From Cyclobacteriaceae bacterium (GTDB taxonomy: Bacteria; Bacteroidota; Bacteroidia; Cytophagales; Cyclobacteriaceae): a DNA stretch of 36,982 nt. Position 1 is the stretch's first letter, and the number at the start of each line of letters is the position of its first letter. The translations under genes and the position numbers were made by a program. Below, in pieces: positions 1,894 to 34,252 of the stretch. Below the pieces are notes generated by a model. It made no database searches and was not told where the DNA came from. It worked only from the letters and a program-made list of their open reading frames with translations. Location of the stretch: NCBI GenBank assembly GCA_020832375.1, contig JAFIEW010000029.1, positions 1-36,982 on the forward strand, read 5' to 3'.

Positions 1894-4800
1894 TTAAGCC
1901 TTTTGCTTCATTTTTGCGACTCTCGATTTGATCTTATCGACCATATAGTACATGATCGGCACTAAAATAAGCGTAAGGAAGGTGCTGAATATAAGTCCAA
2001 AGATCACTGTCCATGCCATAGGCCCCCAGAAGATGGCATTGTCGCCACCGAAGTAAAATTCGGCATCGTAAGAAGAAAGCAACTTAGCAAAGTTAATATT
2101 CACACCTAGTGCCAAAGGAATAAGTCCAACCACTGTGGTGATGGCGGTGAGTAAAACAGGCCTTAAACGTATTTTACCTCCTAATATGATGGTTTTTAGT
2201 AATTCCTTCTGCGGCAATAGTTCACCATCAGCTACCCCAAGCTCTGCACGCTTTCTTTGACGTAGTAGGTTAGTATAGTCGAGAAGTACAATGGCATTGT
2301 TTACAACCACACCAGCCAGTGAGATGATACCCACCCCAGTCATCACTACCACAAAATCCATATTGAAAGCCACCAAACCTAAGAATACACCAATAGTACT
2401 TAAAATAACCGAGGCCAAGATAATGAATGGTGTTGCAACACTGTTAAATTGAGCAACAATGATCATGAAAATGGTGAAAACTGCGATCAACATGGCTCTA
2501 CCTAAAAACTCGGCTGCCTCCTGCTGCTCCTCTTGCTCACCTGTAAAACGCACGGAATAACCCTCAGGCATATCATAATCCGCAATAAGATCTTTCAGTT
2601 GCTCATTGATCTCGTTGGCATTATATCCATCTCTGACATTGGAAAACATCGTGATAACCCTGTCTGAATCTTTTCTCTTCACAGAGCCGTAGGTTTCACT
2701 ATACTCTACATCAGCCACGGCCGAAATAGGTACTTTCTTTTCATTGCCAAATTTATCTCGGAAGGTAATCTTCTTATCCATCAGTGAGCCAATATCGTAT
2801 CTTTGCTCATCTTTGAGTCTCAGTTGAATCGGATACTCATCTTCCCCATCCTTAAACTTACTCACCTCTTGACCGAAGAGAGCAGTACGTAACTCATTGG
2901 ATATCTGATTAGTAGAAAGCCCAAACCTTCTTGCTTTATCTCTATCAATCTTAATAAGTAATTCAGGTTTACCCAGCTCGATATCTGTCTTGAGTTCCTC
3001 AATACCGAGAATTGAAGAATTATTAATTTCTGTTCGCACTGCCGCTGTAAGTTCTATCAATTTTTCAAGATCCTCTCCGATCACTTCCATATTGATTGGC
3101 TTACCTACAGGAGGTCCATTTCTATTTTTATCTACTGTGATGGTAGCTCCCGGATATTTCTCCATGCGCTCACGGATTTCATCCATAATTTTGGTAGTAG
3201 AAACTCCCTGTCGGAATTCAAAATCTTCAAAAGCTACTGTAATTCTTGATTTATGTGGGGAATTCCCTTGACTTGGTCCTTCAGATGGATCCGTTGCTCC
3301 TTCACCTACTTGTGCAATAATAGACTCTAGCATAAAGCCATAAGGCTCCATCATTTCAATCAATTCCTCTTCTAGCGTTTTAGTAAAAGCATTGGTCTTT
3401 TCGATATCCGTACCAATCGGCTTCTCCACGAACACGTTGATATAATTAGGGTCGTTTTCGGGGAAGAACACCACTTTTGGCGATTTTGCCACAAAAATAC
3501 CAATAGATAGCACCAATAATAAAATAGTACCAAAGAATAACAGATAAGGGGTTTTACCCTTTAAAGCAAAGCCAAGTGTCTTCTCATATAAATTCTCCAA
3601 TGAGGTCAAAAAGCGGTTTTGAAATACCTGAACTGCGGGATTGATGAAGTAAATATTGGCCAGAGTCAGTATAACGACAAGCGCCATCACATTACCCATG
3701 GTGATATTACCCATCACAAAAAACAAAATAGCAATTGCTACTCCTACAGCTGAGAAGATCCAATATCTCTTTTTATTTACTTGCATTTTCCCGTCTTGCA
3801 CTACCATAAAAAGGCTTGTCAGTACAGGGTTGATTACCAATGCCACAAACAAAGAGGAAGAAAGTACCACTATCAGCGTCAGCGGAAGGTAGCCCATAAA
3901 TTCACCTACAATACCTTCCCAAAAGGCAAGTGGTAAAAATGCCGCTAAGGTGGTTGCCGTAGAGGTTATAATCGGCAGTGCTACCTCGCCTACCCCTTGC
4001 TTAGCCGCATCTATTGGATTCATGCCTTCCTGCATGAGTCGATAGATGTTTTCAACTACAACAATGCCATTGTCTACCAGCATCCCTAGCGCCAAAATCA
4101 ATGAAAAGAGTACTACCAAATTCATTGTAACACCCAGTGCATTAAGAATCAAGAAGGACATCAACATAGACAGTGGAATGGCTACCCCCACAAAAAGTGA
4201 GTTTCTAAAGCCCAAGAAAAACATCAATACCACTACCACACCGATCATACCCGATATGATGCTATTCTCCAGGTTACTCAATTGGCTACGGGTAACTTTC
4301 GATTGATCGTTCGATATAGAGATATCCAGATCTGCAGGAAAACGAGTATTTTGAGCTCTCTCGATGATGTCAAAAACTTTATCAGCCGCATCGAGCAAGT
4401 TTTCACCGCTACGCTTCACTACATCAATGGTGATTACAGGCAGTTGACTTGAGCGTGCATAGCTAGCTCGCTCCTCATATGTATCTCGAACCTCCGCAAC
4501 ATCTTTTACATAAACGATTTTATTATTGTCAGTCTTGACCACAATATCTTCAATTTCCTTAGGCGACTGAAACTCACCGACTATCCTGAGCGATCGGCGG
4601 AAATCTCCCGCTAATAAATTACCACCAGAAATGGTCACATTTTCTGCCGATATCGCATCAGAAATATCAGAAAAGCTCACATTAACTGCCTCCATCTTAA
4701 ATAAATCGGCATCAATTCTAATCTCGCGTTCCATGGCACCGCGAATGTCCGCACTACTGATTTCCGATAGCTTCTCTATTTCATCCTGAAGGTACTCAGA

Positions 4801-5325
4801 GTACACTTTCAACTCATCGAGCGAGTAGTCACCCGACACATTGATGAACATAATCGGCAGATCCGATAAGTTAACTTCAAATACATTAGGGTCTGCATCC
4901 AAGTCGGTAGGAAGCTCACTTTTGGCCTTATCTACCGCGTCTTTGGTGTCTTGCAGTGCCCTTGAAATGTCTACATTGGGATTAAATTCGACAATAATGG
5001 TCGAAAAATCCTGTATGGATGTAGAAGATATATCTTTCAGGCCATTAAGCCCTTTCAATTCTTTTTCGATTGGTCGAGTCACCAAGTTTTCCATATCCAC
5101 AGGCGAGTTACCGCTATAGGTCGTACCAATGTATATAGTCGGTATAACGATCTCGGGGAAGTTTTCCTTCGGCATGCTCTGATAAGACATATAGCCCATC
5201 AAGCCAATAAGGAAGGTAAGAATTACGATACTCGTACGATTGTCGACAGACAAACTACTAAGTCCGAATTCTCTAATAATAGGATTTTTTGATTTTTCCT
5301 GACCTGAATTTGGTGCTTCACTCAT
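1894..5325 (-). CDS. RND efflux permease (AcrB/SwrC-like inner-membrane pump)
   Basis: At 1143 residues this is a full-length RND permease with an AcrB-like plan: a first helix at about 31-50, two large periplasmic loops and two helical bundles. The helix-4 motif reads GMLVDNGIVVVENIY (D418, N419), where AcrB has two aspartates. Helix 10 reads VVVNNAIVLLDY, with Asn where AcrB has the proton-relay lysine. Both are features I associate with the SwrC-like branch. About 48 extra residues (521-568) after the first bundle carry two more hydrophobic segments, an insertion relative to AcrB. It is the last gene of the TetR-TolC-HlyD-RND operon and sits 206 nt after the adaptor gene, a gap that holds a hairpin-forming repeat. 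The substrate cannot be told from the sequence. Confidence 0.95.
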   Translation of the reverse strand: MSEAPNSGQEKSKNPIIREFGLSSLSVDNRTSIVILTFLIGLMGYMSYQSMPKENFPEIVIPTIYIGTTYSGNSPVDMENLVTRPIEKELKGLNGLKDISSTSIQDFSTIIVEFNPNVDISRALQDTKDAVDKAKSELPTDLDADPNVFEVNLSDLPIMFINVSGDYSLDELKVYSEYLQDEIEKLSEISSADIRGAMEREIRIDADLFKMEAVNVSFSDISDAISAENVTISGGNLLAGDFRRSLRIVGEFQSPKEIEDIVVKTDNNKIVYVKDVAEVRDTYEERASYARSSQLPVITIDVVKRSGENLLDAADKVFDIIERAQNTRFPADLDISISNDQSKVTRSQLSNLENSIISGMIGVVVVLMFFLGFRNSLFVGVAIPLSMLMSFLILNALGVTMNLVVLFSLILALGMLVDNGIVVVENIYRLMQEGMNPIDAAKQGVGEVALPIITSTATTLAAFLPLAFWEGIVGEFMGYLPLTLIVVLSSSLFVALVINPVLTSLFMVVQDGKMQVNKKRYWIFSAVGVAIAILFFVMGNITMGNVMALVVILTLANIYFINPAVQVFQNRFLTSLENLYEKTLGFALKGKTPYLLFFGTILLLVLSIGIFVAKSPKVVFFPENDPNYINVFVEKPIGTDIEKTNAFTKTLEEELIEMMEPYGFMLESIIAQVGEGATDPSEGPSQGNSPHKSRITVAFEDFEFRQGVSTTKIMDEIRERMEKYPGATITVDKNRNGPPVGKPINMEVIGEDLEKLIELTAAVRTEINNSSILGIEELKTDIELGKPELLIKIDRDKARRFGLSTNQISNELRTALFGQEVSKFKDGEDEYPIQLRLKDEQRYDIGSLMDKKITFRDKFGNEKKVPISAVADVEYSETYGSVKRKDSDRVITMFSNVRDGYNANEINEQLKDLIADYDMPEGYSVRFTGEQEEQQEAAEFLGRAMLIAVFTIFMIIVAQFNSVATPFIILASVILSTIGVFLGLVAFNMDFVVVMTGVGIISLAGVVVNNAIVLLDYTNLLRQRKRAELGVADGELLPQKELLKTIILGGKIRLRPVLLTAITTVVGLIPLALGVNINFAKLLSSYDAEFYFGGDNAIFWGPMAWTVIFGLIFSTFLTLILVPIMYYMVDKIKSRVAKMKQKA

Positions 5326-5430
5326 AGAAGTAATCTTTGATGCATTTTATGTTTTGAGTAGCCACTTTTGATGGATATCATCTGTCGCTAATATTCCTAT
5401 TTCTTTTTGAAAGCCGTATTTTGTATTTAT

Positions 5431-5525
5431 TTTTTGCGTGGAATGAGGGGGTAAGACAGTTGGTATTCACTAGCAATCGAACTAAAGATTGATCGTTCGC
5501 CGTCAAATGCGTCCTCATTTCACCC
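5431..5525. repeat. GTGGRATGAGG repeat pair between adaptor and permease genes
   Basis: A T-run followed by GCGTGGAATGAGGGGG lies at 5431..5450, and the inverted partner GCGTCCTCATTTCACCC ends at 5525. The core arms at 5438..5448 and 5513..5523 can pair over 11 bp with one mismatch across a loop of about 64 nt. Related copies are at 12682, 21258 and 29219. The element lies inside the efflux operon, so any structure would form in the mRNA leader of the permease gene. Confidence 0.65.
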
Positions 5526-5531
5526 TAAAAA

Positions 5532-6680
5532 TTATACCTCAGATATTTTCACTCTACCGCCATCACTCACATTTCTAAAGCCTTCATTGATCAGTCGATC
5601 GCCAGCCTCAAGTCCTTCTACCATGCTTTGGTTCCGATAGGTCATGCCTTTTTTCACTGGCCTCTTTTTGGCAACGAGCTGACCTTCCTCTTCTACAGCA
5701 ATGTACACATACTCACCTCTATTGTCTTTCTGAATGAGGTTGGTAGGAACGATTATCGCATCATCGGCATGGAAATCTTTAATTCGTAAGACGGTGAGCA
5801 TATTAGGCTTAGCAAACTCCACCGTTTTTGGCAGGCTAACTTCTAAGCGGAAAGTACGATTATTAGTATTGATCACTTGACCTACAGCTCTAACCTGTGA
5901 TTCAAAGGTTTTATCAAGGCTAGGAAAGCTTACCTCTACAGGATCGCCGGATTTGAATTTCCCAACATAAGCTTCCGAAATATCCGCTTCAATAAACATG
6001 TCTTTAGTAGAAACCAACTGTACTACAGGCGTACCAGGCTGCACACTTTCACCGATTTTGATCAATACCTCCTCAATTACACCAGCAAATGGCGCTCGGA
6101 TAACAGACTTATTTAGCTCTGTTTTGGCTGACTTTAATCGCTCTTCAAGTGATTCTTTATTGTTTTTAGCTTCCAGATACTGTATTTCGGAGCCAATATT
6201 GTCATTCCATAGCTTTTCTTGTCTCTCAAAAACGGTGCTGGCAAGTTCTAATTGCTTTTCAAGTTCTTGCACAGTGCGGTCATTTCTTTCAGAATCTATT
6301 TTACCAATTACCTGACCTTGACGAACTTGCTGACCGTCTTGTACAGATACTTGAATGATATTACCACTAGCTTCTGCACCTACCATTACATTTTTTCTTG
6401 AGCTGAGACTACCCCTTACCTCTAAAAAGTGTTCGAAAGTAGATTTTTCCGCCTCGAGTAAGGTCACTATATAAGCCTTCCTATTTGCACGAGCAAAACT
6501 TGGATCAGCCTTAGAGATTTCGGTTTCCAAATCACTAATCTTAGACTTCAAATCACTCAGTTCTGATTTGTATGCTTTAAGTTCTTCCTTTTTTTGATCA
6601 AGGTCATCGCCTTTAGAGCAAGCGCTTGTCCATAATCCAATCAGCACTAACCCAATCCAGTAATAATTGCTTTTATTCAT
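5532..6680 (-). CDS. RND efflux periplasmic adaptor (HlyD/AcrA family), lipoprotein
   Basis: The 382-residue product starts with a lipoprotein signal ending WTSAC (C21), so it should be lipid-anchored and face the periplasm. A charged heptad-rich segment at about 27-60 is probably a coiled coil. The usual adaptor order follows: a barrel-sandwich half (VMVGAEASGNI... DGQQVRQGQVIGKID), an alpha-hairpin rich in Lys/Glu (about 135-190), the second lipoyl half (VIRAPFAGVIEEV), then beta-barrel and membrane-proximal regions. It would join the TolC-like protein encoded 44 nt upstream to the RND permease encoded downstream. The two lipoyl half-motifs and the operon position make the assignment firm; the exported compound is unknown. 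Confidence 0.94.
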   Translation of the reverse strand: MNKSNYYWIGLVLIGLWTSACSKGDDLDQKKEELKAYKSELSDLKSKISDLETEISKADPSFARANRKAYIVTLLEAEKSTFEHFLEVRGSLSSRKNVMVGAEASGNIIQVSVQDGQQVRQGQVIGKIDSERNDRTVQELEKQLELASTVFERQEKLWNDNIGSEIQYLEAKNNKESLEERLKSAKTELNKSVIRAPFAGVIEEVLIKIGESVQPGTPVVQLVSTKDMFIEADISEAYVGKFKSGDPVEVSFPSLDKTFESQVRAVGQVINTNNRTFRLEVSLPKTVEFAKPNMLTVLRIKDFHADDAIIVPTNLIQKDNRGEYVYIAVEEEGQLVAKKRPVKKGMTYRNQSMVEGLEAGDRLINEGFRNVSDGGRVKISEV

Positions 6681-6724
6681 AATGAAAATTGATTTTGCCA
6701 GTAGGTTACTGGTAGTATGATCTC

Positions 6725-8116
6725 TTAGTTATCGTTCGTTAATAATTTACCATCTGCACGCTCACGATCTACTTTCGCAATGAGCACATCGTAGAGTGCA
6801 TTAAAATAATTTGTTTCTGCTTCCTTAAATGCTGATTCAGCATCGATCAACTCAAAATTAGAACCAAGTCCCGCTTGATATCTTTTCTTCGCATTTTCGA
6901 AAATGGTCTCAGCAAGTTCTTTATTCTCCTTTTGCACTTCAAGCTCCTCAAGGCCATTTCTATAGTCGATATCTGCCTGCATACGCTCAAAAGCGATATT
7001 ATCTTTAAGAAAGGTCCTCTGATTGTCTAGCTGCTGCATCTGTATGCGTGACTGCTGCATCTGATGTTTCTTTAAGAATCCATCGAAGATCGGTACAGAA
7101 AGTCTTACTCCTACTACACCTAAACCAAACCAATTGTCGAAGGCTGCATCAAAGTTTTGAAAACCCGAATTCGCACCAAACCGAGAAAAAGCCTCCAATT
7201 TGGGGTAATATCCAGATCTAAAATTTCTCCACTCTAGCTCTGCCAACTCGCGGTTTACACTTAGTTGCTGAAATTCAATTCTATCATTAAAGTCAAAATC
7301 TTGGTCTACCCCTTCGTACTCCAATTCGCTTTCAATGTCAGCCAATCGGTCGGCTATGTCAATTTCATCGGAAAGTGGCATGCCAACTTGTAGCTTAAGA
7401 ATGTTTTTGGATAGTTGCAATGCTCTCTGAGCCTGCTTAAATTGAGTTTTCACATTATTGAGTTGTACCTTCACGCGACTTACATCCACCTTTTCAATCA
7501 AGCCGTTTTCATATTGCATCTGTGTTTCGCGATAGAGCGATTCTAGTCTTGTAAGATTATTTTGTAAGAGGTCAATTCGTTCTTTACCAACTAGGACTCC
7601 GTAATATGATTTCTTTACATTTTCAATTACATCGGTTTCAGTTTTGATGAAGTCTTTATCAGCGAGCTGCTTATAGGTTTTAGCAGCTTTTAAGCCAACA
7701 AAATAAGAACCGTCAAAGATCATTTGAGTAAGTTGTGCCGCCAGCTCTGCTTGGTAGTTTACCGCAAAGGCTAAAGGGATAACCCCATCACTTGTCGGTT
7801 GAGCACCTCCTCCCCCTGGAATGGGTGGAGCACCTCCACCGCCATTTTGATCAGGTACAGGAATGAAGATGGTGGGTACGATGGCGTTGTAGGTACCTTC
7901 TGCATTTCCAGTAAGCTGTGGTAAACCCTGTGCGCGAGTTTCTCCTATACGCGCTTTGGCCAATTCCTTTTCCAAATTGGCATTCTTCATTTCTACATTG
8001 TTCGTTTTAGCGTAGCGAATACACTCTTCCAGCGTTAAGGTTACCGACTCCTGAGCATAAAGCTCGAGGCTTAGCAATAACAATAACAAAATGGACATAA
8101 TATACTTCAAGGTCAT
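6725..8116 (-). CDS. TolC-family outer-membrane efflux protein
   Basis: The 463-residue protein has a signal peptide ending near LYAQES, then the typical opening SVTLTLEECIRYAKTNN of TolC-like proteins. Two long helical repeat regions rich in Gln, Glu and Leu follow (about 120-250 and 330-450), with a conserved VPIFDG turn between them. TolC trimers form the channel through the outer membrane for an RND or ABC pump. A Gly/Pro-rich insert at residues 88-109 lies where an extracellular or periplasmic loop is expected. It is encoded 21 nt after the TetR gene and before the adaptor, so it belongs to the tripartite system. An alternative start at Met7 would also leave a good signal peptide. Confidence 0.94.
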   Translation of the reverse strand: MTLKYIMSILLLLLLSLELYAQESVTLTLEECIRYAKTNNVEMKNANLEKELAKARIGETRAQGLPQLTGNAEGTYNAIVPTIFIPVPDQNGGGGAPPIPGGGGAQPTSDGVIPLAFAVNYQAELAAQLTQMIFDGSYFVGLKAAKTYKQLADKDFIKTETDVIENVKKSYYGVLVGKERIDLLQNNLTRLESLYRETQMQYENGLIEKVDVSRVKVQLNNVKTQFKQAQRALQLSKNILKLQVGMPLSDEIDIADRLADIESELEYEGVDQDFDFNDRIEFQQLSVNRELAELEWRNFRSGYYPKLEAFSRFGANSGFQNFDAAFDNWFGLGVVGVRLSVPIFDGFLKKHQMQQSRIQMQQLDNQRTFLKDNIAFERMQADIDYRNGLEELEVQKENKELAETIFENAKKRYQAGLGSNFELIDAESAFKEAETNYFNALYDVLIAKVDRERADGKLLTNDN

Positions 8117-15272: not shown

Positions 15273-16082
15273 CTAAATTTCATCCTCATCGAGGCCGAGG
15301 TCGAGTGAATCGTCATATTCTACCACCCAAAGATCAACCACAGATCCGATGCGCACCTCTTGTCCCGATTCAGGCTCTTGCTTTACGACAGTGCCCGCTC
15401 GCTGATTTGTTTCGCTTGCCGATACAAAGACAATTGCCCCTACATTGAGTCCAGATCCTGTAATTAAAAACTCAGCCTCATCAAGATCAAAACCAGTAGC
15501 ATCTGGTACGCCTAGTGTCTGTTTGCCCATGCCATCCCCTACTACCAGATCAATCTTAGCACCTTTCGGAACAAAAGAGCCTTCCTCAATAGGTTTACCT
15601 TCATAGAGTTGATCAAGCACAGAATTTTGAATCAAGTCAGGCTTGTAAATCAACTCCCCCCTGATCAATCCATAACTGCTCAATACCATTTGTGCATTTT
15701 TCACCGAACCGTCAATTAGGTTTGGCATTTTTACCTTTGGTGGCTGAGCGGCATTGAGTGTTACATAAATTTTACGACCTTCCTTTACCTTGGTATTTTT
15801 CATCGGATAGTGATTCAAAACCGCATAAGGTGGGAATTCTGAAGAAAAACCTGAGTCGATATTGACCTCATAGCGCAGGTTTCTCGCTTGCAAATACTGG
15901 TCTAGCTCCTCGAGCACGATTCCTTCCAAATCAGGAACTGTAAGTGTTTCACCATGCTTGGTGGTGCTAGGCAGATAAATTAAAAAGAAGATCAGTATTG
16001 CCAAAAAAGCAATAGAAAGCATGACACCTAAGTGAATTAAGGCCTTTTTAAAGCTGTTGATACGAAAAAAATCTCTAAGCAT
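15273..16082 (-). CDS. Membrane-anchored triple PASTA-domain protein
   Basis: The 269-residue protein has a short cytoplasmic N-terminus, one membrane helix (about 18-38) and three PASTA repeats at about 44-110, 114-182 and 187-254. Each repeat shows the V-P-x-L/A start and the G-x-x-V-x-V end strands. An acidic tail (DDSLDLGLDEDEI) follows. PASTA domains bind peptidoglycan or muropeptides, usually on kinases or penicillin-binding proteins, but here there is no kinase or transpeptidase domain. Its start overlaps the end of the tandem ddl gene by 8 nt, so the two are translationally coupled. That supports a role in cell wall assembly or sensing outside the cytoplasmic membrane. Confidence 0.9.
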   Translation of the reverse strand: MLRDFFRINSFKKALIHLGVMLSIAFLAILIFFLIYLPSTTKHGETLTVPDLEGIVLEELDQYLQARNLRYEVNIDSGFSSEFPPYAVLNHYPMKNTKVKEGRKIYVTLNAAQPPKVKMPNLIDGSVKNAQMVLSSYGLIRGELIYKPDLIQNSVLDQLYEGKPIEEGSFVPKGAKIDLVVGDGMGKQTLGVPDATGFDLDEAEFLITGSGLNVGAIVFVSASETNQRAGTVVKQEPESGQEVRIGSVVDLWVVEYDDSLDLGLDEDEI

Positions 16083-18792
16083 TGATTTTCATTTTTTTAA
16101 ATCCATAATCAATAATTGCATCCACAAAATCATAAGGGGTGTAGGCATTGAGCGCACACTGATGAAAAATGCAAGTAGCAGGTGTCATACCAGGTAGTGA
16201 GTTAATTTCAATAATGTAAACGTGTACGCTCTCCTGTTGATCTACTTTCACGAAGGCATCAATTCGCGCATAACCCTCTATTTTAAGTGTTTCTGCCACT
16301 TTGTGTAGTACTTTTTGCACTTCCCTTTCTACTGCTTCATTGAGCGCGGCAGTAGGTGCATAACGTGCGGGGGTAATATTTTGTCCTTCACCCGCAAGAA
16401 ATTTTTCTTCTAAGCTCAAAACATCCCCTGAAGCTAATGCTTCTGAAGGTCGGAATATTTCATAGCGTACACTACCATCATCCTGTCGGTGAGTAAGCAA
16501 TCCACCTGTAATCTCAAGGAAATAAAGTGCATCCTTTTTATCAATCAACTCCTCGACCAAGAAGTAGGACTTTCGCGGAAACTCTTCGGTCGGTGCCAAG
16601 CGAAGTGTCTGCTCCAATTCAGCATCCCTCATTTCCTCATCCCTAAACATCAAGCGAGTGAAAGCATTGAGCTCTTCTTGGTTTTTTATTTTTTTCACGG
16701 CGCTGCTACACCCGTCGTCTGATGGCTTAGCAATCATGGGGTAAGCAAAAGCTTGCTCTATCTTACGAATCAGCTCGTCTGAGTCTGAAAGAAAATCTTC
16801 CTTTTGAATGAGCATATGATCTGCCACCTTAAAGCCATTTTCGCGCAAGAACTGATTGGTAGCATATTTATCGATAGTCAGTTGTGAGCTCTCAATACTG
16901 GATCCATTGTAGGGGACCCCTCGTTTTTCCAGTTCCCTTTGAATGGCACCGTCCTCGCCAGGCCTGCCATGCAGTGCTATAAAGGCAAAATCAACCGCTC
17001 TCGCCAACTCATCATAGCTTAGCTCTTGTAGCTGAATACTTGACTTTGCATCACGGTAGCGAGAAAGAAATTGATCCGCCTTCTGTGCTATTTCCTTTAC
17101 TATGGGGTGGGATGAAGAGCCATGAAAAGCCTTTTCTTTAATGTCGTCGGCATTATCCTTGAGCATCACCTTCACTGGTATTCTAAATAGTCGATGCATT
17201 TCCTCATCTCCTGAAAGAAAAACAGGAATCGCTTGATACTTTGGCGAGGAGTTGAGTTTCTCAAAGATATTTCTACCGCTTTCTACTGAAATATGTCTTT
17301 CAGAGCTAAACCCACCCATCACCACGGCTACTTTTATTGCATCCGATTCTTCATGCTTAATGCGATGGATGTCATCGTCAAGTTTTGCAAGTAGCCGCTT
17401 GATGCTAAATTGGTTTTTACCAGTTTTTAGTCTTGCAGCGAGGCTCGTACGAATAATGTAGGTAATGAAAGCTGAAGGATCCATGTCTACTTCCGCGGCC
17501 TGATGGAAGAAAAAGGAAGAAGGCATCATGCCAGATGTGGTATTAGGATCGTTGAGGTATACATGCCCTTCAGGACTTAAAAAACCGTCGATACGAGCAT
17601 AGACTTCAGCTTGCATCAGCTCAAAAAGGTCTTCGCAGGCCTTGGTGATCTTCCGAATGTCGGCATCGCTAGCATCGATTGGGGTAATTTTCCTACTCAT
17701 ACCTGGCAGGTACTTGCTCTTATAGTCAAAGAGGTCGGTCTTCTTTCGGATTTCAGTTGGAGGCAACGATAGTGGTTTCCCCTGTTCATCTTCAATGACA
17801 ATGCAAGAAAACTCTTTGCCTGAAATTTTTTCCTCCACCAGCAACTGTTGATCAGCATCTTGCGCCGAAAGCACAATACTTGGCTCATTGCAATCCGATA
17901 GGTAATCGTATAGTTCGGCTGGATGTAATATCCATCTGTCGGCAGATTCATGATATAAAGGCAGTCCAAGCCCTTCACGAATATCGATCAATCGATGCAC
18001 GAAGATGCGCTTTTGCTCACTGTCAAGCAGCTGAAAAGCGGTGATATCGATTTGCTGCTTAAAAAAGCACCTATCTACTGCCGCTTCGAAAGTGGTAAGC
18101 TCGGGATGAGATAAAATAGCAACCCCTATTGATGAGCCTTGAGTTGGCGCTTTGATGACAAACTCAGAGCCAACAGCGGAAATCAGTTGTCTTAAAAGTT
18201 TTGATCGGTCAGTAATCGTCTCCCACTCTGAGCGCAAAATACTCGTTCTCTTTGGTTGTAGAAAACCAACGGTACTCATGATATTTGCTTGAATGAGCTT
18301 ATTGATACCAAATGCTGAGGAAAACATACCCGCTCCAGAATAAGGAATGCCGCACCACTCCAAGATACCCTGAATATTTCCATCTTCACCATAAGGTCCA
18401 TGGAAAGTGAGAAAAGCAAAATCAATAAGACTGGCAAGCTCTTCTATGGCGACCTTTTCACCCACCTCAGCGATCATCTTATCCATTTTATCCTGCGGCA
18501 GATGATGCAGAGACTCTACATAAAGCTGAAAACTGGACTGATCGGGTAGCGACTCACTTACTGCGCTTGCAGTAGGGTAGAAATCACGTATGGTACCTTT
18601 ATAAATATTTTTCCAATCGAGATGAATGAAATTGCCGAGGGTATCTACAAAGATAGGAACCGGCTGAAAAAGCCCTTTGTTGAGGTTATCATAGACCGTT
18701 CTACCCCCTGCAAAAGAAACTTCCCTTTCTCTGCTTCTTCCTCCAAAAAAAATTCCAACGCGCATACATTCTTTATTTAATGCTTGAATCAT
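16075..18792 (-). CDS. ddl: Tandem (double-length) D-alanine--D-alanine ligase
   Basis: The product is 905 residues, roughly twice a normal Ddl, and contains two ATP-grasp ligase copies. Copy 1 (about 10-460) shows VGIFFGGRSREREVS, HGPYGEDG (131-138), KAPTQGSSIG (214-223), the loop FDYKSKY (355-361), R400-x-D402 and D415-P-N417. Copy 2 (about 485-905) shows VMGGFSSERHIS, HGRPGEDG (608-615), KPSDDGCSSA (689-698), R843-x-D845 and E862-I-N864. Ddl joins two D-alanines for peptidoglycan precursors. Copy 1 has Asp where the metal-binding Glu is usual. Copy 2 keeps Glu-x-Asn but has a diverged substrate loop (SLEEKF). Met10 (MRVGIFFGG) is an equally good start. The gene ends 8 nt inside the PASTA gene. 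Confidence 0.9.
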   Translation of the reverse strand: MIQALNKECMRVGIFFGGRSREREVSFAGGRTVYDNLNKGLFQPVPIFVDTLGNFIHLDWKNIYKGTIRDFYPTASAVSESLPDQSSFQLYVESLHHLPQDKMDKMIAEVGEKVAIEELASLIDFAFLTFHGPYGEDGNIQGILEWCGIPYSGAGMFSSAFGINKLIQANIMSTVGFLQPKRTSILRSEWETITDRSKLLRQLISAVGSEFVIKAPTQGSSIGVAILSHPELTTFEAAVDRCFFKQQIDITAFQLLDSEQKRIFVHRLIDIREGLGLPLYHESADRWILHPAELYDYLSDCNEPSIVLSAQDADQQLLVEEKISGKEFSCIVIEDEQGKPLSLPPTEIRKKTDLFDYKSKYLPGMSRKITPIDASDADIRKITKACEDLFELMQAEVYARIDGFLSPEGHVYLNDPNTTSGMMPSSFFFHQAAEVDMDPSAFITYIIRTSLAARLKTGKNQFSIKRLLAKLDDDIHRIKHEESDAIKVAVVMGGFSSERHISVESGRNIFEKLNSSPKYQAIPVFLSGDEEMHRLFRIPVKVMLKDNADDIKEKAFHGSSSHPIVKEIAQKADQFLSRYRDAKSSIQLQELSYDELARAVDFAFIALHGRPGEDGAIQRELEKRGVPYNGSSIESSQLTIDKYATNQFLRENGFKVADHMLIQKEDFLSDSDELIRKIEQAFAYPMIAKPSDDGCSSAVKKIKNQEELNAFTRLMFRDEEMRDAELEQTLRLAPTEEFPRKSYFLVEELIDKKDALYFLEITGGLLTHRQDDGSVRYEIFRPSEALASGDVLSLEEKFLAGEGQNITPARYAPTAALNEAVEREVQKVLHKVAETLKIEGYARIDAFVKVDQQESVHVYIIEINSLPGMTPATCIFHQCALNAYTPYDFVDAIIDYGFKKMKINA

Positions 18793-23411: not shown

Positions 23412-24752
23412 ATGATAAAAAAGCGCTACATTTTCTGCATATTTTGTTTGTTAATGGCACTTTCGGTGGATGCACAAGAAAAAATGTCGATGGAAGAGTG
23501 CATTAGGTATGCATTCGGACAGCAACCACTTTATCAAAGACAGCTTCTCCAACAAGAATTCGTAGCTCTTGACATCAAAAGCGGATTATCCGGATGGACA
23601 CCCCAGGTGAATTTAGCTACTGACTTCGAATACTTTTTACAACAACCCGTAGCGATTTTTCCTGACTTCGAAAACCCTGAATCTGGCGAATTCCAAGAGG
23701 TAGAAACAGGTGTACCTTACAATGCCAATGTCTATCTCACCATGCAGCAATCCATATTGAGCAACCGCTTAATAGATATTGTAAGAAGAAAGGAAGTACT
23801 TAAAACACGTGCCGAGGCCATGACCAAAAGCGCTCGTCTTGATTTAATCCGAGAGGTAAGCGCTGCCTACCTTCAACTAGCCTTAGCTGAAGAGCAAATA
23901 CAACTAATACAAGGCAACATAGAGCGGCAAGAAAGGCAAAAAAAGGAAACTCAATTACAGTTTGAAAGCGGTCTTACTGATCAAGTGGATTATAAACGTG
24001 CCCTCATCGCTCTAAGCAATAGCGAGGCGGAACTAAAGAGAGCTCAAGAAGACCAAAAAATTGCACGCAGCCAATTGCATCTTGCTATGGGGAGGGATCC
24101 CCTAGAAGAAAATGTGAGTACCATAGATATCACTGAACAGATTCAAAAGATCGTTAACAACTTTACAATCGAAGCTAATGAAGTTTCAAATAGACCAGAA
24201 TATACCGTACAACAAAGCGATCTATCCCTAGCGGCAGAAGACATTAACTTTGGGAAAAGAGCCTTCATGCCTGAATTGAGTGCGTTTTTTAATTATACCA
24301 TTCTTTTTCAAAGTCCCAATGGTGACGAGCTGATCAGTCAGCGTTTCCCCTACTCTACGGTTGGTTTGCGACTATCAGTTCCTATTTTTTTAGGTGGAAT
24401 GAGAATCTATGAGATACAAAAAGCAAAAATTGCTTATGAACAAGTGGAACTCAATGAACGGCAACTGATCAACCGCATTGACAATGAATACACGCAAGCA
24501 GTAGCTGACTTCCGTGCAGCGAAAACACAATGGCAAAAATATGCTCAAAATGAACAATGGGCAGAAGAAATATACCAAACCATAAAATACCAATATGAAG
24601 AAGGTATCATTAACTTTCTAGAAGTGGTAGTTGCGGAAGATGACCTACGCACTGCCAGAATCAATCGACTAAATGCGCTTTTCTCAGCTTATGAAGCCAA
24701 ACTCGCTATTGACAGAGCTCGTGGTGAAGAAATCATATCTTACCAAAACTAA
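23412..24752 (+). CDS. TolC-family outer-membrane efflux protein (second copy)
   Basis: The 446-residue product has a signal peptide ending near SVDAQEK and the TolC opening MSMEECIRYAFGQQPLY. Two helical repeat halves follow (about 120-240 and 330-440), with the conserved VPIFLGG turn before the second half. It resembles the product at 6725..8116 in design but has no Gly/Pro-rich insert. It would form the outer-membrane duct of an RND or other tripartite pump. The adaptor gene starts 4 nt after its stop, so the two are one transcript. No inner-membrane permease is encoded nearby. Confidence 0.94.
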   Translation: MIKKRYIFCIFCLLMALSVDAQEKMSMEECIRYAFGQQPLYQRQLLQQEFVALDIKSGLSGWTPQVNLATDFEYFLQQPVAIFPDFENPESGEFQEVETGVPYNANVYLTMQQSILSNRLIDIVRRKEVLKTRAEAMTKSARLDLIREVSAAYLQLALAEEQIQLIQGNIERQERQKKETQLQFESGLTDQVDYKRALIALSNSEAELKRAQEDQKIARSQLHLAMGRDPLEENVSTIDITEQIQKIVNNFTIEANEVSNRPEYTVQQSDLSLAAEDINFGKRAFMPELSAFFNYTILFQSPNGDELISQRFPYSTVGLRLSVPIFLGGMRIYEIQKAKIAYEQVELNERQLINRIDNEYTQAVADFRAAKTQWQKYAQNEQWAEEIYQTIKYQYEEGIINFLEVVVAEDDLRTARINRLNALFSAYEAKLAIDRARGEEIISYQN

Positions 24753-24756
24753 TTGA

Positions 24757-25872
24757 ATGACACGATCAACCTACCACTATCGTAATATTGCTATCTGTTT
24801 CATACTTGGCTTATTTGTTGCGAGCTGCCAATCTCAAAAAGAGCAACAAGATGAGCCTCTCAAAGTAGTTGCTTATAAGGTGCAAAAAGAATATATAAAG
24901 ATTCGATCAGAATACCCTGCGCGAGTGGTAGCACTTCAAGAGGTGGTGATCCGTGCAGATGTAAGTGGTTTTATCACTAGAATACTAATAGAAGATGGTG
25001 ATCAAGTTCAGAAAGGAGACCTGCTTTATGAAGTTGACACTCGCCGATACCGAGCAAGGTCACAGGAAGCTGCGGCAAGGTTGCGTATAGCGAAAGAAAA
25101 TAAAAAAAGAGTAGAGCAAGATCTTGCTCGATATGAAAAGCTCCAAGCAGAGAATGCCATACCGCGTCAAACCTACGAAAATACACTCATAGAGCTAGAA
25201 AACGCCTCAGCACAGATAGAGGCCGCAGAGGCTGAGTTAGAAAATCTTAGTGTAGACCTAAAATATACCAAAGTTTATGCTCCATTTGATGGCACCCTAG
25301 GATTTTCTGATGTTCGCCTCGGTGATTTAGTGACGGCGGGAAGCACAGCCCTCAACACCATCTCCTCTGATGACCCTATGGCAGTGGACTTGCAAGTAAA
25401 TGAGGATCAGATTCCTTACTATCGTGATTTATTAAATCAGCAAAATGAGGCTCGACAGCTCAATGATTCTCTTTTTAAAGTAAGGCTAAACGACGGAAGC
25501 TATCACGGCTACCCCGCTCACTTGAGGAGATTAGACCGCGCTGTAGACGAAAATACCGGAACAATACGTGTAAGGCTCGTTGTAGACAACCCTGAGTTTT
25601 ACTTGCGTCCTGGACAATCATGCAGGGTTTCGGTAAAAGACGAGCGGAGTGGTAAACACCTTTTGGTACCCGAAAAAGCAATCAAGGAAGACCTCGGGGA
25701 GTATTTTGTTTTTGTAATTGGGGATGATAATAAAATTGAACAACGCCGTATACATAAAGGCGCTACTGCCGATGGGTCAGTCATTATAGAAAAAGGGCTA
25801 AGCGAAGAAGAGCTTATCGTAAAAGAAGGAGTCGGAAGGGTATCAGATGGCGACCAAGTAAAATTTGAGTAA
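24757..25872 (+). CDS. RND efflux periplasmic adaptor lipoprotein (second copy)
   Basis: The 371-residue protein has a lipoprotein signal ending FVASC (C24). The MexA/AcrA adaptor order follows: a first lipoyl half (VVIRADVSGFITRILIEDGD), a coiled alpha-hairpin (about 90-165), a second lipoyl half (VYAPFDGTLGFSDVRLGD), the beta-barrel and the membrane-proximal domain. It is the standard link between a TolC channel and an RND permease. The usual third gene, the permease, is absent: 62 nt downstream a decayed barrel gene begins. The protein itself looks intact and could partner a permease encoded elsewhere. Confidence 0.93.
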   Translation: MTRSTYHYRNIAICFILGLFVASCQSQKEQQDEPLKVVAYKVQKEYIKIRSEYPARVVALQEVVIRADVSGFITRILIEDGDQVQKGDLLYEVDTRRYRARSQEAAARLRIAKENKKRVEQDLARYEKLQAENAIPRQTYENTLIELENASAQIEAAEAELENLSVDLKYTKVYAPFDGTLGFSDVRLGDLVTAGSTALNTISSDDPMAVDLQVNEDQIPYYRDLLNQQNEARQLNDSLFKVRLNDGSYHGYPAHLRRLDRAVDENTGTIRVRLVVDNPEFYLRPGQSCRVSVKDERSGKHLLVPEKAIKEDLGEYFVFVIGDDNKIEQRRIHKGATADGSVIIEKGLSEEELIVKEGVGRVSDGDQVKFE

Positions 25873-29835: not shown

Positions 29836-30651
29836 CTACTCCCAAAGAGGATATCTTTCCAGCTCTATTTGCTCACCAAAAAACGTCTTCGTTGTTTTCT
29901 CAAATGAGGCTGTAAAATCAGATACTAAGAAAATATCTGAAGATACTTTAACTCGTTTTGTCACCAATAAATTGTGATATGCCAAATAGCCTTTCAAAGA
30001 GTTAGCTACAATTACGGAAGAATCAATGATATCAACAGCTGCATTAGCATAAAATTCGGTAATTTTATCCTTGATGACAGGATAGTGGGTACAACCTAAA
30101 ATCAAAGCATTGATCGACTGCAGCTTATCATGGTTCAGATATTCAGAAATAATACCTGTACTAATCTGATTCTTATAAAAGCCTTCCTCTATCATTGGCA
30201 CCAACATGGGTGTGGCGAGACTTTGTAGTCTGATCGATCGATTAAGGCCTTCTATTTTATTTGCATATACATTGGATGCTACTGTAGTTTTAGTACCAAT
30301 CAATCCAATTTCTTTTTCAGGGTAGTGCTCTCTCACATAATCAACAACTGGATCAATTACATTAAATACATGTGCTTTTGAACCCACATATTCCTTCACT
30401 AAGTCGAAGGCTGCAGCTGATGCGGAATTACAAGCAATTAAAATTATCTTACATTTCTTGCGCAGAAGAACATCGGCAATTTTAACAGAATAGGCTTGTA
30501 TAGCAGCGCTAGATTTATCTCCGTAAGGTAAGTGAGCTGTATCGCCAAAATAAATGATTTGCTCTTCTGGCATTAGATGTTTAATAGCTGCCGCTACAGT
30601 AAGCCCTCCAATACCACTATCAAAAATCCCAATCGGTTGTTCGGCTATCAT
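29836..30651 (-). CDS. murI: Glutamate racemase
   Basis: The 271-residue product has the two-cysteine racemase site. D11-S12 lies in GIFDSGIGGL, C74 in LIACNSASAA and C187-x-H189 in GCTHYP; E156 is also in place. It converts L-glutamate to D-glutamate for peptidoglycan in the cytoplasm. Length is normal. Its start codon overlaps the stop of the LacI-type gene upstream by 4 nt (ATGA), so the two are translationally coupled and transcribed together from the LacI promoter. MurI is usually constitutive, so this coupling to a LacI-type regulator is unusual. Confidence 0.95.
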   Translation of the reverse strand: MIAEQPIGIFDSGIGGLTVAAAIKHLMPEEQIIYFGDTAHLPYGDKSSAAIQAYSVKIADVLLRKKCKIILIACNSASAAAFDLVKEYVGSKAHVFNVIDPVVDYVREHYPEKEIGLIGTKTTVASNVYANKIEGLNRSIRLQSLATPMLVPMIEEGFYKNQISTGIISEYLNHDKLQSINALILGCTHYPVIKDKITEFYANAAVDIIDSSVIVANSLKGYLAYHNLLVTKRVKVSSDIFLVSDFTASFEKTTKTFFGEQIELERYPLWE

Positions 30652-31673
30652 ACTGTCTTGATGCTACTGTCTCTGATAATGAGGTTGGTAGGTAAGGTGT
30701 ACTCCATTACCTTGAAATTTTCTTTATCCTTGGATTTTAATTGCTCAATAAGCATTTCAGCGGCTTTTTTACCCATTTCATAGCCTGGCTGCTCTACCGT
30801 GCTAATTGACGGACTAACTAACTGAGTAACAGGTTCATTGCTAAAGCCTATCAATGCTACTTGACTAGGTATTTTAACACCTCTTTCTGAAAATCGCTTA
30901 TGTATACCTAATGCTACAGGGTCGGTTACAGCAAATATTGCCTCTGGTAAATGAGGTAGTTTAAGGATTTCATCCGCTATCTTCATACCTCCTTCTACAC
31001 TCAATTCTGATCTTATTATGCGAATTTCATTTTCTAAACCTCCATCCTTCATCGCGTCAGCATAACCATCTTCTCGATTTTTACTGATGCTAAGCTTTTC
31101 TGGGCCTGATACATGAAGAATCTTAGTGAACTTTTGATCGATCAAGTGCTTAGTGGCGTTTTTGGCACCTTCAAAATCATCTACCACTACCTTGCCTGTA
31201 GGCAAACTAGGGCAAACACGATCGAAAAACACCATGGGTACTCCTCTCTCATATAAGCTTTCGAAATGGGAATAGTCATTGGTTTCAGAAGAAATGGAAA
31301 TTAAAAAGCCATCAACCCTACTGGAATATAGGATGCCAGCATTTGCGACTTCTCGATCATATTTCTCATTAGACTGACAGATCAATATGTTATATCCTTG
31401 TTCACGGGCAGCATCCTCTATACCGCTAATAGTAGATGAAAAAAAATGATGAACAATTTGAGGAATCATTACTCCTATTGTATTTGTTTTACTACTCCTT
31501 AATGCCGAAGCAATAGTATTGGGTTGATAATTTAACTCTTTGGCAAGAGCAACAACGGCTTTTTTTGTTTTAGGACTTATATCAGGATGATCTTTGAGGG
31601 CTCTAGAAACAGTAGAGGGTGATATATTTAGTTCTCTTGCAATATCTTTTATTGTAACTTGACCGGGTAGCAT
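30648..31673 (-). CDS. LacI-family transcriptional regulator
   Basis: The 341-residue protein has an N-terminal LacI helix-turn-helix at about 7-28 (VTIKDIARELNISPSTVSRA), then a hinge (YQPNTIASALRSSKTNT) and a periplasmic-binding-protein-like ligand domain from GVMIP to the C-terminus. The ligand is probably a sugar or sugar phosphate, going by the family. Its gene overlaps murI by 4 nt, so it and the racemase form an operon, while a DUF6089-type gene starts 188 nt upstream on the other strand and could share the regulatory region. No clear palindromic operator was found in the intergenic stretch. Confidence 0.94.
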   Translation of the reverse strand: MLPGQVTIKDIARELNISPSTVSRALKDHPDISPKTKKAVVALAKELNYQPNTIASALRSSKTNTIGVMIPQIVHHFFSSTISGIEDAAREQGYNILICQSNEKYDREVANAGILYSSRVDGFLISISSETNDYSHFESLYERGVPMVFFDRVCPSLPTGKVVVDDFEGAKNATKHLIDQKFTKILHVSGPEKLSISKNREDGYADAMKDGGLENEIRIIRSELSVEGGMKIADEILKLPHLPEAIFAVTDPVALGIHKRFSERGVKIPSQVALIGFSNEPVTQLVSPSISTVEQPGYEMGKKAAEMLIEQLKSKDKENFKVMEYTLPTNLIIRDSSIKTV

Positions 31674-33088: not shown

Positions 33089-34252
33089 TTATCGAACCAC
33101 CACCCTTGGTATACTTTCTGGAAGCCGAGTGAGGAGCTCATAATTAGGCTGGTTGGTCAATTCTCCAAAAGCAGCGACTGATATTTCGTTATTTCTTTGT
33201 TTACCAATGAGCACTACTTCATCGTTTTTTGCTACATCTTTGAGTGCTGAAATATCTGCAATCAATAGATTCATATTCACGATACCTATTATGGGTACTC
33301 TTTTTCCTTTAATCAACACACGCCCCATATTACTCAAGCTACGAGTAAATCCATAAGCATAACCTACAGGAACAACGGCTAAGTGCATTGCTTGTGTGGC
33401 TTGATAGCTCATACCATATCCAATAAACTCACCAGCATCTACCGTTTTGGTAGCCATAATCGTCGAACTCCAAGAAATCACGCGGCGAAGAGGGTCTTTG
33501 GTATTCATGCCATTTTTTTGCAGATAGGCAATAAAAGTTTCCTTACTTGGCCAAAAGCCATAAGTCAATATACCGACTCTCACCATATCCATGTGAGTCT
33601 CAGGGTAGCTAATCACCGCGGCACTACAGGCAGTATGCCGTAACTTTGGAGTAAAACCCGCATCAAAAAACTCCTGATATACCTCTTCGTAGCGTTTAAT
33701 TTGGTTTTTGATCCTCAAATAGTTTGCAATACTCTCCGAACCTGCAAAATGAGTACATAGTCCTTCAAACTCATAATGACCTTGATAGGTGTCAAGCAAC
33801 TGTATGACCTGCGGAATCTCTTTTGCTTGAAACCCCAAACGATTCATACCTGTCTCCACCTCTATGTGTAATAACACCTGTTTTCCAATCTTTTTCGCAG
33901 TTGCCAATAAAATCTGCAATCGCTCTAATTCAAAAGCGTAAACCTCAACACCCTCCTCGATAGCCCATTTACATTGATCATCAAGAATCTGTCCCATAAT
34001 CATCAGGCGTGTGCCCTGCTTCTTCACTTGACAAACACGGTATGCTTCATCGGCACTAAACACGCTGAGATGACCAATGCCATTTCGTTCTAATAAGGGA
34101 ACAAAAGTTTCAATATCGTGTCCGTAAGCATTACCTTTAATCACGGGTGAATAAATCGTCTTATCCCCTAGCAAACTTTTAATGAATCGAATATTGTTGG
34201 CAACTGCAGACTTGCTCAGTTTAAGTTGGGATGTATGAAAGTTTTTACCCAT
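33089..34252 (-). CDS. alr: Alanine racemase
   Basis: The 387-residue protein is a PLP-dependent alanine racemase. K39 in SPVIKGNAYGHD carries the cofactor. Y279 in FIGYGMSY is the second catalytic base, confirmed by the 19-residue spacing to Y298 in VPVGYAYG, which matches the Bacillus enzyme. R138 in MNRLG and the TACSAAVI segment also fit. The usual GYADG motif reads GYAYG, a small change. It supplies D-alanine for the Ddl reaction encoded elsewhere in the window. It is alone on its strand; the 71-nt gap upstream separates it from a divergent DUF3820 gene. Confidence 0.95.
   Translation of the reverse strand: MGKNFHTSQLKLSKSAVANNIRFIKSLLGDKTIYSPVIKGNAYGHDIETFVPLLERNGIGHLSVFSADEAYRVCQVKKQGTRLMIMGQILDDQCKWAIEEGVEVYAFELERLQILLATAKKIGKQVLLHIEVETGMNRLGFQAKEIPQVIQLLDTYQGHYEFEGLCTHFAGSESIANYLRIKNQIKRYEEVYQEFFDAGFTPKLRHTACSAAVISYPETHMDMVRVGILTYGFWPSKETFIAYLQKNGMNTKDPLRRVISWSSTIMATKTVDAGEFIGYGMSYQATQAMHLAVVPVGYAYGFTRSLSNMGRVLIKGKRVPIIGIVNMNLLIADISALKDVAKNDEVVLIGKQRNNEISVAAFGELTNQPNYELLTRLPESIPRVVVR

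Follow-up and report, generated by a model that had tools for sequence, protein, structure and literature searches.

D-Ala-D-Ala ligase (Ddl) is an essential, drug-targeted enzyme (D-cycloserine) and is usually described as one small module. The S150A and Y216F variants of Escherichia coli DdlB, studied by Park and Walsh, reportedly gain depsipeptide-type activities. In lactic acid bacteria (lactobacilli, Leuconostoc and relatives), Phe versus Tyr at the position of Tyr216 sets depsipeptide versus dipeptide activity (PMC5996685), and a recurrent dimer arrangement is described for canonical Ddls (PMC6899670). Here we analyse a Ddl gene with two such modules in one chain: positions 16075-18792, minus strand, of a 36,982-nucleotide stretch from a Cyclobacteriaceae bacterium (Bacteroidota; GenBank assembly GCA_020832375.1, contig JAFIEW010000029.1, positions 1 to 36,982; the whole stretch is called the window below) encode a protein of 905 amino acids. 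Each of its halves, copy 1 and copy 2, belongs to a type with its own set of active-site residues. On the strength of sequence comparison, we lean towards regarding this tandem as the sole D-Ala-D-Ala ligase of its bearers, in which copy 1 would make D-Ala-D-Ala and copy 2 would be an ATP- and Mg-competent partner with an altered acceptor site.

Two Ddl modules with distinct active sites

The Pfam scan of the 905-residue protein returned the Ddl N domain twice and at least two stretches of the Ddl C domain, the remaining matches being three generic ATP-grasp models weaker than the Ddl domains. Both domains (PF01820 and PF07478), which together define a Ddl here, exceed their curated cut-offs, and the whole protein reaches 349 bits with TIGR01205 (cut-off 245.65), a score summed over both copies: single halves remain below the cut-off, with 163 bits for a copy 2 encoded by a gene of its own (L205) and 186.5 bits for a truncated copy 1 (L125). 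The AlphaFold2 model of the tandem, built with 74 alignment rows, has a pTM of 0.91 and a mean pLDDT of 91.3. In this model copy 1 (residues 10-463; positions 17404-18765, minus strand as for all parts of the tandem) superposes over residues 8-463 on Salmonella DdlA (3i12_A; VIA-align Z 39.3, 338 residues aligned, 2.9 Å), and copy 2 (residues 486-900; 16093-17337) superposes over residues 484-904 on Thermus Ddl (6u1d_B; Z 39.5, 325 aligned, 2.1 Å) as well as on the D-Ala:D-Lac ligase 1ehi_A (Z 38.3) and the Y216F variant of DdlB, 1iow (Z 36.4); the rows listed in the fold searches with the tandem were Ddl relatives. Since the copies are 27% identical to each other and 23-31% identical to E. 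coli DdlA and DdlB, they are about as distant from each other as each is from the E. coli enzymes. The single open reading frame (ORF), the domain matches and the superposition of both halves on solved Ddls confirm the original prediction of two complete Ddl ATP-grasp modules in one chain.

Using E. coli DdlB as the ruler for residue numbering in both copies, we compared 87 tandem rows (84 distinct, down to about 27% identity) from Bacteroidota, one Gammaproteobacteria metagenome-assembled genome (MAG) and two Patescibacteria. Throughout this set copy 1 has Glu15, His63, Ser150, Lys215, Tyr216, Arg255, Asp257, Asp270 and Asn272 (87/87 each), with Ser281 in 86 rows, and copy 2 has Glu15, His63, Cys150, Lys215, Phe216, Arg255, Asp257, Glu270, Asn272 and Thr281 (87/87 each). 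The Glu15-Ser150-Tyr216 triad is complete in every copy 1 and has both Ser150 and Tyr216 changed in every copy 2; the metal ligands Asp257, Glu270 and Asn272 are all present in every copy 2, and in every copy 1 Asp replaces Glu270. Residue 282 is small in copy 2 (Cys, Ala or Val) and mostly Phe in copy 1. Of 33 single Ddls taken as a control, 32 carry the canonical Ser/Tyr/Glu/Ser set, as do 26 of 26 further ones, 23 of the latter from the same family as the window. The functional asymmetry that had been suspected between the halves is supported by two distinct residue sets held over the 87 rows; plotted over the other double-length Ddls, the residues named at the time keep the same asymmetry in every row.

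In the window protein the substrate loop of copy 1 is FDYKSKY (residues 355-361; 17710-17730), with Y361 at the position of Tyr216; Ser220 (18133-18135) corresponds to Ser150, and D415-P-N417 (17542-17550) is the metal motif at Glu270/Asn272. The counterparts in copy 2 are Cys695 (16708-16710), the loop LSLEEKFLAGEGQNITPAR (residues 792-810; 16363-16419) with F798 in place of Tyr216, the metal motif E862-I-N864 (16201-16209) and Thr873 (16174-16176) for Ser281. FDYKSKY, D415 and E862-I-N864 stand where the original prediction had placed them, but its statement that copy 2 lacks the normal substrate loop was mistaken: the loop exists, with K797-F798 aligned to K215-Y216 of DdlB and Phe replacing Tyr, and Cys695 and Thr873 (87/87 each) are two further changes of this copy beyond those it had named.

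Occurrence, reduced forms and origin

Of 148 genomes from the window's family, 27 (its own among them) carry a full-length tandem, the others being 52-57% identical to the window tandem. Three of the family's tandems show no difference in their last 700 residues from those of Marivirga aurantiaca and two MAGs named Cyclobacteriaceae, which makes Cyclobacteriaceae the probable family. In the collection of named genomes, of which the best 80 loci were retained, the matches listed include tandems of Hymenobacter, Pontibacter, Rufibacter, Flammeovirga, Marivirga, Neolewinella, Xanthocytophaga and Sporocytophaga, and tandems only 28-30% identical in a Gammaproteobacteria MAG (L100) and two Patescibacteria (L102, L103). 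Across the order, a hand count over 145 genomes gave two N-domain matches in 87 (split genes in seven of these), one in 57 and three in one. The retention of the tandem in 27 same-family genomes and in named isolates excludes an assembly artefact or chance as its source and bears out the earlier suggestion that the fused Ddl is a lineage trait. No description of a tandem Ddl was found among the listed titles and opening lines of abstracts of open-licence papers, which is not proof of absence. Two loci deserve separate mention: in L100 (5710-8439, plus strand) a helix-turn-helix domain lies ahead of the tandem, either as a fusion or as an in-frame upstream gene, and a MAG labelled Sphingomonadales (L080) carries a tandem of the Bacteroidota type with a PASTA neighbour, probably by a binning error.

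In all of the 31 tandem genomes checked, every PF01820 match lay inside the tandem ORF. Of the 16 genomes behind named loci, 15 had no match outside the tandem or pieces of it, and that of L118 had one match, in a gene of a different type. All 11 genomes searched for MurF gave a match, which exceeded the curated cut-off in eight and had a best E-value of 1.7e-53 or better in the other three. As no other Ddl accompanies the tandem in any of the 31 genomes and MurF is matched wherever it was searched for, we infer that the tandem synthesises D-Ala-D-Ala; the notion that copy 2 has another job in the absence of MurF is not borne out. The window's genome has two MurF homologues (C118 and C188), one in a 439-residue ORF and the other in an 812-residue ORF, which we take to be the MurF-Alr fusion of Bacteroidota, and similar pairs are found in other Bacteroidota searched. 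The second homologue (ORFs of about 790-917 amino acids) is also present in genomes with a truncated Ddl and is therefore not tied to copy 2.

This truncated protein, composed of copy 1 and the first lobe of the copy 2 N domain, occurs in three families. In one (f3, presumably Spirosomataceae) PF01820 was matched in 80 of 81 genomes, with ORFs mostly of 553-677 amino acids and an extra weak partial match in two genomes; in the two others (f56, 7 of 7 genomes; f58, 10 of 10), counted by hand in the order sample, there is one match per genome, the listed ORFs having 570-646 amino acids. The truncated form holds the only PF01820 match in the three genomes of this kind that were checked alongside the 31 tandem genomes. 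All 42 truncated sequences read (32 from f3 and 10 from f56 and f58) contain the full copy-1 set with Asp270, and in the model the remaining lobe of copy 2 reaches a pLDDT of 92-96 in blocks from residue 481 to 572. Since the truncated form is the sole Ddl in families losing the catalytic domain of copy 2, copy 1 appears to suffice without that domain. That D415 marks a crippled half is not supported, and its reading as a dead-site marker is rejected: the Asp is found in all 42 of these truncated sequences, and the ATP-grasp kinase Asp1, an active enzyme, binds both metals through an Asp-x-Asn motif (Asp333/Asn335) at the position of Glu270 (PMC9765450). Most likely, copy 1 is a D-Ala-D-Ala ligase that the Asp does not inactivate.

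In another family (f69, 21 genomes of 0.7-2.7 Mb; presumably Amoebophilaceae), the two copies are split into separate genes in 12 genomes and form a tandem in six; one genome (G620) has copy 2 only and two have neither, one of these being only 66% complete. Where split copies share a contig they lie far apart, for example at 769 versus 428 kb (G636) and 336 versus 1743 kb (G649). The 12 split copy-1 genes all have Ser/Tyr/Asp/Ser, and the 13 solo copy-2 genes all have Phe216, with Cys150 in 11 and Ser150 in two, those of G620 and G742 (within the 12 split genomes, Phe216 in 12 and Cys150 in 11). These Ser150 genes (L232:691-1944, minus strand, in G620; L262:1444-2661, plus strand, in G742) are also the only ones of 12 tested that do not adjoin a PASTA gene, PASTA being matched elsewhere in the genome, and their Ser150 may go back to one event or lineage. 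The Cys-to-Ser change as a sign of copy-1 loss is weakened, as G742 with its Ser still has copy 1. A further genome of the family, G743 (0.7 Mb, 90% complete), has neither a Ddl N-domain nor a PASTA match and perhaps lives without peptidoglycan. Elsewhere in the phylum, a stand-alone copy 2 was not among the stronger matches listed for 395 genomes, whose scores leave a gap from 116 to 479 bits.

A careful, unrooted tree of 39 of 106 rows, from which L106 was left out (an aberrant row in an earlier FastTree), sets copy 2 (support 100/100), copy 1 with the truncated forms (94/87) and single Ddls (99/96) apart from one another, and each copy group unites the Bacteroidota rows with the respective copies of L100, L102 and L103. 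Forcing the six halves of these three together, as expected from an independent tandem duplication in the Patescibacteria-type rows, was rejected (approximately unbiased test, p 0.0002), a test that shares any long-branch pull. Given that each copy group mixes phyla and that separate duplication is rejected, the tandem pair most probably has a single origin under this tree model, followed by inheritance or transfer. The truncated forms nest inside Bacteroidota copy 1 and, so placed, look like secondary losses. Both copies have changed at similar rates: over 3486 pairs of Bacteroidota-type tandems copy 1 averages 55.5% identity and copy 2 57.3%, and 46 of 454 columns of copy 1 and 50 of 414 columns of copy 2 are invariant over the 87 rows, which excludes recent decay of one half. 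With both residue sets kept in tandems down to about 27% identity, the asymmetry between the halves is ancient.

The possible role of copy 2

With its canonical substrate set (Glu15, Ser150, Lys215-Tyr216, Arg255, Ser281) and Asp for the bridging Glu270, copy 1 would be active within the tandem and make D-Ala-D-Ala for MurF. Copy 2 keeps the residues for ATP and Mg (Lys97, Lys144, Glu180, Glu187, Asp257, Glu270, Asn272) and has an acceptor side that would be altered by the changes of Ser150 to Cys, Tyr216 to Phe and Ser281 to Thr; it would pair with copy 1 as a built-in second subunit, a pairing made plausible by the recurrent dimer arrangement of canonical Ddls. Its site would either tune copy 1 through binding of D-alanine or ATP or join D-Ala to another acceptor, and whatever activity or product copy 2 may have, we infer from its sequence. 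Most likely, it either works catalytically or binds ligands, as a partner of copy 1 whose acceptor site is altered.

Several observations weigh against this assignment. No tandem was found in 121 of the 148 same-family genomes (115 with another match, mostly ORFs of about 320-400 amino acids, and six with no match), and many genomes in the surveys are MAGs. The residue sets have exceptions: Gln replaces Glu180 in 1 of 34 copy-2 rows (one of the three Patescibacteria-type rows), Arg replaces Lys144 in 4 of 34 copy-1 rows (4 of the 31 Bacteroidota rows), His63 is changed in 2 of 12 solo copy-1 genes, and the solo copy 2 of G745 has no metal motif, its ORF ending before it. In G620 (0.7 Mb, 96% complete) the only gene found is a copy 2 with Ser at 150; if this is real, copy 2 alone can serve as Ddl and a strict division of labour is weakened. 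The copy 2 of G742 likewise has Ser150, although that genome retains copy 1. It should also be noted that the tree tool warned of long branches meeting at the Patescibacteria rows. Considering the loss of its catalytic part in three families and the canonical single Ddls of close relatives (23 read), we argue that an activity of copy 2 is not generally essential. An assay of any tandem member was looked for and none was found.

Among the alternatives, it is possible, if rather doubtful, that copy 2 is a regulatory pseudo-ligase, which would bind ATP together with D-Ala or D-Ala-D-Ala and determine how active copy 1 is, perhaps itself governed by the neighbouring PASTA membrane protein. Downstream of the tandem, the window contains a gene for a PASTA-domain membrane protein (15273-16082, minus strand; Pfam PASTA 8.3e-22), the first 8 nucleotides of which coincide with the last 8 of the ligase gene. 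A PASTA-type gene comes next after the tandem in 26 of 27 same-family loci and in 37 of 59 named loci with enough DNA; the former count is partly built in, as the neighbour profile was made from 17 of these 27 neighbours, and three of the named loci repeat same-family ones. The same holds for 10 of 12 solo copy-2 genes, for none of nine solo copy-1 genes and for none of the 12 truncated loci that extended far enough (27 out of 39 tested did not), PASTA being matched elsewhere in the genome in three of three truncated-form genomes searched; in L122 and L079 the tandem is fused at its C end to a PASTA domain. However, 4 of 23 same-family single Ddls have this neighbour too, so that the gene order may simply be inherited and a special bond between copy 2 and PASTA is weakened, and a pure sensor need not retain every catalytic residue.

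Somewhat slimmer is the chance, raised in the original prediction as different products of the halves, that copy 2 catalyses a ligation of its own. It would then couple D-Ala not to D-Ala but to a D-hydroxy acid (as in D-Ala-D-lactate) or a larger D-amino acid, so that stem peptides could end in two ways. The depsipeptide Ddls of lactic acid bacteria are marked by Phe in place of Tyr216 (PMC5996685), Asp257, Glu270 and Asn272 of copy 2 are intact in 87 of 87 rows, and its small residue 282 could admit a larger acceptor. Yet Ser150 and Ser281 also differ in copy 2, its catalytic part is gone in f3, f56 and f58, and no tandem was found where canonical single Ddls occur. We regard it as unlikely that the protein is merely a pair of ordinary D-Ala-D-Ala ligases joined to raise the dosage: G620 may have no Ddl besides its solo copy 2, but two distinct residue sets are held across phyla and single Ddls are canonical (32/33 and 26/26). 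Just as little credit is due to a copy 2 serving purely as a structural dimer partner, the part that had been proposed for one of the halves: the confidently folded first lobe is kept in the truncated forms that have lost the ATP-grasp part, but copy 2 as a whole changes no faster than copy 1, conserves its ATP and Mg residues, has active-site residues that are invariant in tandems and nearly so in separate genes, and survives as such a gene in genomes of 0.7-1.9 Mb.

As to the other neighbours, the tandem ORF overlaps an alanine racemase ORF in the Uhrbacteria genome (L103), and the window, too, contains an alanine racemase gene (33089-34252, minus strand). A gene of the Asp/Glu racemase family (29836-30651, minus strand) adjoins a LacI-type regulator (30648-31673). 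An RND efflux set of pump, adaptor and outer-membrane channel lies at 1894-8116 (minus strand), and a second pair of adaptor and channel at 23412-25872 (plus strand), with no RND pump gene seen in the flanking ORFs.

Comparison with known ligases

In many genomes the only Ddl is an old version of the enzyme with two modules, whose halves differ from each other in a strictly conserved way. Its PASTA-fused, copy-1-only and split variants are natural experiments on the communication between Ddl subunits and on the Tyr/Phe and Ser/Cys positions, and they bear on whether Gram-negative walls hold unusual stem-peptide ends. Should copy 2 indeed use another acceptor, a large part of Bacteroidota and some Patescibacteria would possess a bifunctional enzyme, which would set the ratio of two stem-peptide ends or yield a D-dipeptide for another use.

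Fused and duplicated relatives are known. The two halves of CarB, the large subunit of carbamoyl-phosphate synthetase, perform different steps. CarB, too, belongs to the ATP-grasp proteins and originated through duplication within its gene (PMC11915815), a trait in common with the tandem, but it differs in ATP-grasp family and chemistry, and no CarB model was among the Pfam matches of the tandem protein. In the MurC-Ddl fusions (NCBIfam PRK14573) Ddl is likewise part of a fused chain, but its partner is MurC and not a second Ddl; the tandem scores 180 bits with this model (cut-off 1015). With the D-Ala-D-Lac ligases (LmDdl2, PDB 1ehi; Lactobacillus Ddl), copy 2 shares Phe at the Tyr216 position and the fold (Z 38.3), to which it adds Cys at Ser150, Thr at Ser281 and a tandem partner of the Tyr type; the comparison rests on the Tyr216 position, and with the D-Ala-(R)-lactate ligase model NF000206 the whole tandem (184 bits) and a solo copy 2 (L205, 90 bits) score below the cut-off of 550 bits. 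With ordinary Ddls such as E. coli DdlA and DdlB, finally, the tandem shares the fold, the order of domains and the ATP and Mg residues in both halves as well as the status of sole Ddl; it departs from them in having two modules per chain, Asp for Glu270 in copy 1, and Cys, Phe and Thr in the acceptor positions of copy 2.

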